A stretch of DNA of 64,000 nucleotides, taken from NCBI GenBank assembly GCA_040757205.1, contig JBFLXL010000011.1, positions 1 to 64,000 on the forward strand, in the 5' to 3' direction. Both the position numbers and the translations under genes were made by a program. Position 1 is the stretch's first letter. Every line of letters begins with the position of its first letter. Shown one piece after another: positions 51,617 through 54,101 of this stretch. This DNA is from Bacillota bacterium (GTDB taxonomy: Bacteria > Bacillota > Desulfotomaculia > Desulfotomaculales > Desulforudaceae). The notes under the pieces are model-generated. The model had not been told where the DNA came from. It was given only the letters and a program-made list of their open reading frames with translations, and ran no database searches.

Positions 51617-51649
51617 AAAGACAACCAGTTGACGAGAGAGGTTGTCTTC

Positions 51650-52531
51650 GTGAATCTAAGCTACCTCGAAACCTTTGTTATGGTCGCCAAACACAAGAGC
51701 TTCTCAAGGGCCGCCAAGGCCTTGAGCCTTACCCAACCCGCGGTGAGCAAGCACATTTCCCTGCTCGAGGTCCACTACGGCACCAAACTGGTCGACCGCA
51801 CCAGCCGGCGCGTCGAACTGACCGACGCCGGCATTGTGCTCTACCATTTTGCCGGCCGGATCATCTCGACCATGGAGCGCGCGAAGGAGGAAATCGCCTC
51901 CTTTTCCGAAGAGGTCAAGGGCCGGTTGAACATCGGGGCGAGCACCATCCCCGGGCATTACATCCTGCCCCGCACACTCAGCGAATTCAAAAAAGAGTAC
52001 CCCCTGGTGAACGTTTCCCTGGAAGTGAGCAATACCGGCAAGGTAATCAACCGGCTCCGGGAGGAATCCATCCAGGTCGGGGTCATCGGCGCCCCCGTGA
52101 ACAGCCCCGAGATCAACTGTACCGAGTTCACCAGCGACGAAGTGGTTCTGATCTTGCCGGCCGACCACCCGCTGGCCGAACGCAAGGAGCTGATCACCAA
52201 CGACCTTATCGGCGAAAAGGTCGTGGTGCGGGAAAACGACTCGGGCACCCGGCGCATCGTGGAGGAGAAACTGGCCGCAGCCGGCGTTCCGTTCGACAGC
52301 CTGCAGGTGGCAGGGGAATTCGGCAGCACCGAAGCCGTGCTGGCCGGCGTGGAGGCGGGACTGGGAGCTTCCTTCGTCTCCCGCTGGGCCGCGGAAAAAG
52401 CGGCGACCGAAGGCCGGGTCGTGGTCCGCATACTACAAGATTTGTGCTTCTCGCGCAGCCTGTATCTCATCTACCCCCGGGACAAGAGCCTCTCCAGACC
52501 CACCCGTGCTTTTCTTTCATTCATCAAGTAG
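51650..52531 (+). CDS. LysR-family regulator of the tRNA-yedE-yedF locus
   Basis: The 293-residue LTTR has the N-terminal winged helix (FVMVAKHKSFSRAAKALSLTQPAVSKHISLLE) split across residues 7-38 and a CysB-like effector domain (LNIGASTIPGHYILP, then VILPADHPLAERKEL and GAGLGASFVS). Start GTG 51650 follows GAGAGGTT. LTTRs of this kind are found next to selenium- or sulfur-related yedE/yedF genes. The palindrome at 52603-52617 is a likely operator, and the downstream genes in the same direction are its probable targets. Confidence 0.88.
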   Translation: MNLSYLETFVMVAKHKSFSRAAKALSLTQPAVSKHISLLEVHYGTKLVDRTSRRVELTDAGIVLYHFAGRIISTMERAKEEIASFSEEVKGRLNIGASTIPGHYILPRTLSEFKKEYPLVNVSLEVSNTGKVINRLREESIQVGVIGAPVNSPEINCTEFTSDEVVLILPADHPLAERKELITNDLIGEKVVVRENDSGTRRIVEEKLAAAGVPFDSLQVAGEFGSTEAVLAGVEAGLGASFVSRWAAEKAATEGRVVVRILQDLCFSRSLYLIYPRDKSLSRPTRAFLSFIK

Positions 52532-52602
52532 AACAACGCTCAGCTGCCGGCAACCGGACCCACCCATCCTCCTTGAATATCGCCACCAACAATAAATTCT
52601 TT

Positions 52603-52617
52603 TTATGGCTGCCATAA
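52603..52617 (+). promoter_or_regulatory. Putative LysR operator palindrome
   Basis: TTATGGC-T-GCCATAA is a perfect 15-nt dyad containing the T-N11-A pattern of LTTR sites. It is centred about 55 nt before the inferred start of the tRNA transcript, the usual LTTR position. Confidence 0.6.
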
Positions 52618-52629
52618 GAGGATTTCATT

Positions 52630-52685: not shown

Positions 52686-52779
52686 GGAGGGAACGGAGCT
52701 GGCGCTCCCCACGGAATGCAAATCCGCCGGCCGCGCTTGATTAAGCCGGGGTGGGTTCGATTCCCACCTCCCTCCTCCA
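52686..52779 (+). tRNA. Unusual tRNA-Cys(GCA) with a tRNASec-like body
   Basis: The acceptor strands GGAGGGA/TCCCTCC are followed by U73 and an encoded CCA. The D arm is GGAGC-TGGC-GCTCC, a 5-bp stem with a 4-nt loop, unlike normal tRNAs and like tRNASec. The anticodon arm is CGGA-ATGCAAA-TCCG with anticodon GCA (52718-52720), nearly the same as in ordinary tRNACys. The variable arm is long (7 bp with one bulge, GATT loop). The T arm GTGGG-TTCGATT-CCCAC can gain a sixth pair (G750-C768), making 13 acceptor/T pairs. U73 and GCA are CysRS identity elements. tRNASec has G73. Confidence 0.85.
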
Positions 52780-52810: not shown

Positions 52811-53899
52811 TTGTTCAACGTCAAGGGGAAGGGGCTCGTAACCCTGACCGGCCTGACAATCGGCGCGCTCGCCATCGCGTTGATGGTTGCCGGTAATCCC
52901 AAAAACATGGGCCTTTGCATCGCCTGTTTCTTGCGGGACATCGCCGGCGCGCTCGGGCTGCACAGTGCGGCACCCGTCCAGTACGTCCGCCCGGAAATCA
53001 TCGGGATTGCCCTGGGCGCTTTCGCGGCCGCCCTGGCCACCGGTTCCTACCGCGCCATGGGCGGATCGAGCGCCCTGACCAGGTTTGTCCTGGGCTTCAT
53101 CGGCATGATCGGCTTTTTAGTCTTTCTCGGCTGCCCTCTGCGCATGCTCCTCAGGATGTCCGCCGGAGACCTCAATGCCTGGCTGGCCCTGCCCGGCTTC
53201 GCCGCGGGCATCGCCGCCGGCGTCTGGTTCATCAACCGCGGCTTTACGCTGGGAAGAGCCACGCGTCAGAACAACACCCACGGCTACGTATTCCCGACGA
53301 TGATGGCGGCCCTGCTGGCCCTGTTGGTGTTGGGCTTCCCGCTCCTGCGCGCCAGCACGGAGGGTCCGGGGTCTATGCACGCCCCGCTCTTGCTTTCGCT
53401 GGGGGCCGGCCTCCTGGTCGGGGCACTGGCTCAGCGCACGCGTTTTTGCCTGGTCGGCCCGATCCGCGACCTGATTATGTTCCGCGACCCCTACCTGATG
53501 TTCGGGATGGCCGGCCTGTTTCTGGCCGCGCTGGTCGGCAACCTGATCATCGGGAACTTCAGCGCCGGCTTTGCCGGCCAGCCGGTCGCCCACACCGACG
53601 GCCTGTGGAACTTCCTGGGGATGGCCCTGGCGGGTCTATGCTTCACCCTGGTTGCCGGGTGCCCGCTGCGCCAGCTGGTTTCCGCCGCCGAGGGGAACAC
53701 CGACTCGGCGGTCACCATTCTGGGCGTGCTGGTCGGGGCGGCCTTCGCCCACAACTTCGGCCTCGCCGCCAGCCCGGCGGGCGCTTCCGTAAACGGGCAG
53801 TACGCCGTGGGCGCCGGATTGATCTTGACCTTGGGCATCGGCTTCGCCCTGTCCGGCGCCCGGATCCTGGCGAAAGGAAAGGTGACGGAAAGTGCCTGA
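52811..53899 (+). CDS. yedE: YedE/YeeE-family membrane transporter, selenium/sulfur-associated
   Basis: A 362-residue integral membrane protein with about nine or ten helices. It holds paired Cys-containing motifs typical of YeeE/YedE thiosulfate-type channels: GLCIACFLRDIAGA, FLGCPLRMLLRM, RFCLVGPIRDL and VAGCPLRQLV. YeeE of this fold carries thiosulfate. A YedE branch is associated with selenium metabolism. Start TTG 52811 has GGGG 8 nt upstream. It lies 31 nt after the unusual tRNA and overlaps yedF by 8 nt. The substrate is not provable from sequence. Confidence 0.88.
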   Translation: MFNVKGKGLVTLTGLTIGALAIALMVAGNPKNMGLCIACFLRDIAGALGLHSAAPVQYVRPEIIGIALGAFAAALATGSYRAMGGSSALTRFVLGFIGMIGFLVFLGCPLRMLLRMSAGDLNAWLALPGFAAGIAAGVWFINRGFTLGRATRQNNTHGYVFPTMMAALLALLVLGFPLLRASTEGPGSMHAPLLLSLGAGLLVGALAQRTRFCLVGPIRDLIMFRDPYLMFGMAGLFLAALVGNLIIGNFSAGFAGQPVAHTDGLWNFLGMALAGLCFTLVAGCPLRQLVSAAEGNTDSAVTILGVLVGAAFAHNFGLAASPAGASVNGQYAVGAGLILTLGIGFALSGARILAKGKVTESA

Positions 53900-54101
53900 T
53901 GTCGACGTCTGCGGTCTGGTGTGCCCCGAACCCGTGCTGCTGGTCAAGCGGCGGATCGACGCCTTGGGGGAAGGCGCGATCACCGTGCTGGCCGATTCGG
54001 AGGCGGCCCGGGAAAACATCAAGCGCCTGGCCACGGGCAAGGGCTGGGCGGTACGGATCGAGGAGCAGGATGACAAGTACCTGCTTACCCTGACGAAATA
54101 G
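53892..54101 (+). CDS. yedF: TusA/YedF-like sulfur or selenium carrier protein
   Basis: A 69-residue SirA/TusA-fold protein with the GLVCPEPVLLVK motif, whose Cys carries sulfur (or selenium) as a persulfide. It is the short form without the second DsrE-like domain of full YedF. GTG 53892 follows AAAGGTGA and overlaps the yedE stop. The overlap couples it to the YedE transporter, so the pair probably imports sulfur or selenium and hands it on. Confidence 0.9.
   Translation: MPDVDVCGLVCPEPVLLVKRRIDALGEGAITVLADSEAARENIKRLATGKGWAVRIEEQDDKYLLTLTK

Follow-up and report, generated by a model that had tools for sequence, protein, structure and literature searches.

Positions 52,686 to 52,779 on the forward strand of the window, i.e., the whole 64,000-nucleotide stretch of DNA that was analysed, hold a genuine tRNA of a known rare class, a cysteine tRNA on a tRNASec body (selC* tRNACys or tRNAReC), which lies behind a candidate tandem LysR-type operator and between genes for a selenium-type LysR regulator and a putative selenium transporter. 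The name tRNAReC is reportedly that of Vargas-Rodriguez 2018 (RNA Biol). Such tRNAs have been reported to recode UGA as cysteine, and on what occasion and for what reason their hosts use them is the question addressed here. The conserved promoter site and the neighbourhood shared with the transporter and the regulator lead us to predict that tRNAReC is made when selenium is scarce. If so, recoding of a codon would depend on supply, with the meaning of UGA changing with selenium, and the disputed role of YedE, in uptake or export, would also be affected. What appears to be new is the genomic context (the conserved gene order and the operator), not the tRNA class.

Fold and identity of the tRNA

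Against the Rfam tRNA-Sec model (RF01852), positions 52,686-52,775 scored 51.7 bits, exceeding the gathering score of 47, while ARAGORN missed the 94-nt tRNA, making no call anywhere in the window. In the unconstrained minimum-energy fold, seven acceptor and six T-stem pairs form an acceptor/T branch of 13 pairs, the D stem has 5 bp and its loop 4 nt, the variable arm has 7 bp including one bulge, the anticodon loop AUGCAAA presents GCA, and the 3' end carries U73 and an encoded CCA; fold stability relative to shuffles gave z = -2.8. In an alignment of 24 relatives these pairs were preserved in 91.6% of cells, and two-sided compensatory cells numbered 72 as against 29.5 in shuffles, also well above slid controls. 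Under a covariance model of the relatives the tRNA scored 89 bits, a value that includes its own contribution as one of the model's 24 sequences. Thus the 94-nt Sec-like fold drawn in an earlier sequence-only reading (13 pairs, 5-bp D stem, 4-nt D loop, 7-bp arm, GCA and U73) was borne out by both the covariance score and the minimum-energy fold. That reading had named a normal class I fold, or an ordinary tRNA at this place in relatives, as grounds for giving it up: a class I tRNACys of the usual kind, which has a 7/5 branch and a short variable loop, was rejected on the ARAGORN result and the fold, and the relatives carry the same unusual tRNA.

Identity elements were constant among relatives, with U73 in all 69 distinct sequences measured and GCA in all verified members of the sample. 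A tRNASec with a changed anticodon, charged by SerRS, was dropped as the main reading on the grounds of this invariant U73 and of a separate tRNASec (G73, UCA) in the genome. At position 33, where U is near-universal, C stands in L105, L095, L090 and L055 and A in L114; C or A at this position occurs in 6/69 distinct sequences and may relate to SelB-guided decoding.

The sequence-only reading had also suspected membership of a class described by the Soll group, and the features do match those of selC* tRNACys, a class that stems from Mukai 2017 (NAR) and is described in PMC7609411. Shared with it are: i) a tRNASec-like fold with a long acceptor/T branch, a small D loop and a long variable arm; ii) cysteine identity, marked by U73 with a GCA (in the class, GCA or UCA) anticodon; iii) coexistence with a canonical tRNASec and SelB in one genome; and iv) an anaerobic Firmicutes background, with close relatives in Desulfotomaculum-type genomes, the lineages of the named members. 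The window copy differs in its T stem, which lacks a bulge, and in its eighth acceptor pair, which is A.C; the 8/4 branch with a bulged T-stem base, called typical of the class, is therefore not seen here. Since 20 of the 69 distinct relatives likewise lack the bulge, which was moreover reported to be dispensable in vivo (PMC7609411), we treat it as typical rather than defining. tRNAReC genes were also found in Actinomycetota (Solincola, Geothermincola and Thermoleophilia MAGs; L073, L083, L084, L092, L093, L097, L112 and others), a phylum outside the class distribution stated in PMC7609411.

The sequence-only reading had asked whether the genome has a normal tRNACys and a tRNASec, and both are present: an ordinary tRNACys(GCA) on contig C3 and a tRNASec(UCA) with G73 on contig C1. 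The genome also encodes SelB, with selA adjoining, and two SelD paralogues (L158 and L159, at G000:C6:98287-99210 and G000:C16:22063-22983), both with an in-frame UGA at the active-site position (TVGGGUAAKVG and SPGSGUACKIG). Of two features of Desulfobacterales, a second SelB and a CysRS without an anticodon-binding part, the former was looked for and rejected, only one gene lying above the SelB cut-off. Nearly every selD of the related genomes has the UGA, with or without tRNAReC, which leaves no variance for a correlation between tRNAReC and UGA-containing SelD.

Gene order around the tRNA

Upstream on the same strand, positions 51,629..52,531 (start codon provisional) encode a selenium-metabolism LysR-type regulator, LysR_Se (NF040786, LysR_Sec_metab, 291.1 bits over a cut-off of 250; PF00126 and PF03466), of a subfamily to which archaeal HrsM also belongs according to PMC5322559. 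Downstream, again on the forward strand, yedE (52,811..53,899; TIGR04112, 486 bits over a cut-off of 200), a putative selenium transporter gene, begins with a TTG codon 31 nt past the 3' end of the tRNA, and its stop is overlapped by a gene for a TusA/SirA-like protein of 69 aa (53,892..54,101, forward strand; PF01206, 61.4 bits). The neighbours had been read earlier as yedE and yedF: YedE stands, while the second protein is only the N-terminal SirA/TusA half of YedF, the full model (TIGR03527) scoring 56.9 bits, below its cut-off of 110. Because a terminator scan found no terminator-like site in the interval between them, tRNAReC and yedE are probably carried on one transcript.

The covariance model of tRNAReC, run on 150 related genomes, found 75 genes in 67 of them. 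The order LysR_Se-tRNAReC-yedE-tusA, whose synteny in relatives the earlier reading had proposed to check, is kept in the genus, by most members of the family, and likewise in L050. More widely, yedE follows 41-255 nt 3' of tRNAReC on the same strand for 23/75 genes, in six families, and the link to yedE, rightly singled out before as striking, is thus recurrent; the public sequences are interrelated, so that locus counts overstate independent events and six families is the safer number. The remaining 52/75 have no yedE directly after them, and yedE occurs in many genomes without tRNAReC. All 67 tRNAReC genomes contain selD (P = 4e-5), and 66 of the 67 match the LysR_Se model, some weakly. LysR_Se adjoins tRNAReC in the window's family and in L050, L055 and L104, and is absent within a few kb of most tRNAReC genes outside that family.

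Other arrangements were seen as well. The tRNA sits between yedE and tusA in L107 and is divergent from yedE in L092 (Actinomycetota). Neighbours other than yedE include LysR_Se in L104 and, as named from their sequences, a selD-like gene immediately 5' of the tRNA in L084 and in L095, and 2-hydroxyglutaryl-CoA-dehydratase-like genes (dehydratase and activase), a kind that PMC5322559 reports close to selenium genes. In L079 (Actinomycetota bacterium Zod_Metabat.502), an ORF resembling cysteinyl-tRNA synthetase lies within ~300 nt 3' of tRNAReC; this cysS-like product would be the enzyme expected to charge the tRNA. Genome G086 has three tRNAReC genes (C1:1322398, 1798285 and 2999043), and G018, G022, G047, G057, G088 and G099 have two each.

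A candidate tandem operator before tRNAReC genes

Side-by-side reading of tRNAReC leaders brought out a pattern of two ATAA-N7-TTAT boxes with a 22-nt period, which in the window occupies positions 52,592..52,628 of the forward strand (ATAAATTCTTTTTAT-GGCTGCC-ATAAGAGGATTTCAT) with 1 mismatch in 16 positions. Bacterial LysR_Se thus gains a candidate operator in these tandem boxes. When named genomes, from Firmicutes to Actinomycetota, were scanned with a tRNAReC pattern, 48 stretches came out, of which 47 were kept, L086 being discarded as not tRNAReC-like. Period-22 tandem boxes with at most 2/16 mismatches were present in 26/47 leaders, as against a mean of 0.03 in dinucleotide-shuffled leaders, 0 for the reversed pattern and 9 for the next-best period; 11/47 loci had at least five mismatches. 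Among loci outside the defining set, 8/27 passed and 22 was again clearly the best period. The operator was found before tRNAReC genes both with and without linkage to yedE, and was not found before six tRNASec genes.

A perfect-match search of the own genome returned no site, the window copy itself carrying one mismatch; with one mismatch allowed there was one site in the own genome, and ~180 in the related genomes versus ~65 for the reversed control. A degenerate copy (3/16 mismatches) precedes LysR_Se itself, and further tandem sites precede a yedE without tRNA (genome G032), HgdB-like genes (L135, L151), DUF169-like genes (L138, L147, L148) and molybdopterin oxidoreductase-like genes (L140, L152). 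The sites before the last three kinds of gene hint at a wider regulon; DUF169 and CoA-dehydratase genes appear in a selenium gene table within PMC5322559. A perfect tandem operator also lies 5' of a tRNA-Lys(ctt) in L155 (G026:C7:49361), where it may belong to a nearby gene or be fortuitous.

The spacer that separates the two boxes is TTGACA-like in several Clostridia, and a TATAAT-like element comes after it, so that box 2 would lie between putative -35 and -10 elements, a position that would suit repression. On genomic context, LysR_Se is the putative binder of the tandem operator.

A predicted low-selenium role, its alternatives and known systems

We think it fairly probable that tRNAReC brings cysteine, by SelB delivery, to SECIS-marked UGA codons, and that it does so as part of a tRNA-yedE-tusA operon controlled by LysR_Se and induced at low selenium. 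CysRS would charge the tRNA by virtue of U73 and GCA, and SelB, not EF-Tu, would bind it owing to the 13-pair branch and the long variable arm, so that cysteine would be inserted at SECIS-marked UGA in place of selenocysteine. Delivery by SelB and decoding of UGA as cysteine, with EF-Tu reported unused, were described for the D. nigrificans tRNA (PMC11415595) and are extended here by homology. As the first gene of the operon, tRNAReC would be governed by the adjacent LysR_Se through the tandem operator, and repression would be relieved at low selenium. This predicted induction is carried over from archaea, where HrsM represses Cys-encoding isogenes at adequate selenium and where selenium depletion of M. 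maripaludis raised yedE by 5.3 log2 (~39-fold) and TusAD by ~4.5 log2 (PMC11097638). Greater capture of selenium through YedE/TusA would accompany translation of selenoprotein mRNAs, including that of SelD, as possibly useful cysteine versions instead of truncated products. The case of SelD is attractive: SelD needs selenocysteine itself to make the selenium donor, and a cysteine form would let the cell restart. On the broader proposal of a regulated LysR_Se regulon, in which one selenium-sensing LysR acts through an operator of fixed 22-bp period on both yedE/tusA uptake and the UGA-to-Cys tRNA, we lean only slightly towards acceptance. Several findings weigh against the low-selenium operon model: LysR genes are numerous, the operator before LysR_Se is degenerate, the 11 poorly matching loci stand beside the 26 good ones, yedE does not directly follow about two-thirds of the tRNAReC genes, deletion of yedE in M. 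maripaludis gave no clear uptake defect (PMC11097638), GCA must mispair at UGA, and the typical T-stem bulge is missing next to an A.C eighth acceptor pair.

Part of the evidence would also suit a selenium-starvation safeguard under another regulator, with the boxes bound by, e.g., a sulfur regulator of the CysL/CysB kind, and with linkage to yedE as the mark of a shared sulfur/selenium response. ATAA-N7-TTAT is a generic LysR site of the T-N11-A type, box copies also precede genes without a known selenium tie, and for most tRNAReC outside the window's family no LysR_Se lies closer than a few kb. We nevertheless hold this to be rather unlikely, given the adjacency of LysR_Se in the window's family, L050, L055 and L104, its model matches, some of them weak, in nearly all tRNAReC genomes (66/67), and the sites before selenium-linked genes (the yedE without tRNA, HgdB-like and DUF169). 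Doubt may likewise fall on the codon that is read: GCA, present in every verified relative of the sample, can pair with UGC/UGU but not UGA, and the tRNA could be a minor tRNACys that EF-Tu brings to ordinary UGC/UGU codons, or could act through SelB at SECIS-marked Cys codons. However, a normal tRNACys(GCA) is already present, there would be no point in conserving a SelB-type branch and a long arm if EF-Tu carried the tRNA, and the studied homologue reportedly decodes UGA without EF-Tu, all of which make this improbable.

Two further readings concern the closeness to yedE. The sequence-only reading had suggested that a Cys-, persulfide- or selenium-charged tRNA is a substrate or sensor for YedE/YedF, an idea that draws on the co-oriented, adjacent genes in six families and that we consider very improbable: most tRNAReC genes have no yedE directly after them, yedE often occurs without the tRNA, the partner gene at the locus encodes no more of YedF than its TusA half, and no mechanism of this kind is known. 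A Sec-like body needs no sensor role, because published UGA recoding through SelB already explains it. Equally hard to credit is a pure cis element for processing or attenuation, with no use in translation, to which the position in what would be the yedE transcript leader, separated from the start codon by 31 nt that hold no terminator-like site, gives some appeal; most copies lie outside yedE leaders, the charging elements U73, GCA and CCA are conserved, and the L107 copy sits between yedE and tusA. The preferred reading is that a SelB-delivered tRNAReC would put cysteine in place of selenocysteine at low selenium.

Among known systems, bacterial tRNASec (selC, RF01852) shares with tRNAReC the 13-pair acceptor/T branch, the 4-nt D loop and the long variable arm, whereas the window tRNA has GCA in place of the UCA anticodon and U73 in place of G73, and the tRNASec promoters checked have no tandem operator. 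Compared with published tRNAReC, the window copy adjoins LysR_Se, yedE and tusA behind such an operator, a context not found in the literature examined, although the original class papers may have noticed it earlier. The LysR_Se/YedE/YedF selenium gene set of Zhang 2015 (PMC5322559) comprises the same protein families with the same neighbourhood logic, while the passages of that paper on the set mention neither a tRNA of this kind nor an operator. Closest in proposed logic is the HrsM switch of Methanococcus (PMC11097638), in which a regulator of the same LysR_Se subfamily sets a selenium-dependent choice between selenocysteine and cysteine and yedE and tus genes are induced at low selenium, as is proposed here by analogy. 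The archaeal switch works by transcription between isogenes, whereas in the bacterium one and the same gene product would receive cysteine by means of a substitute tRNA.
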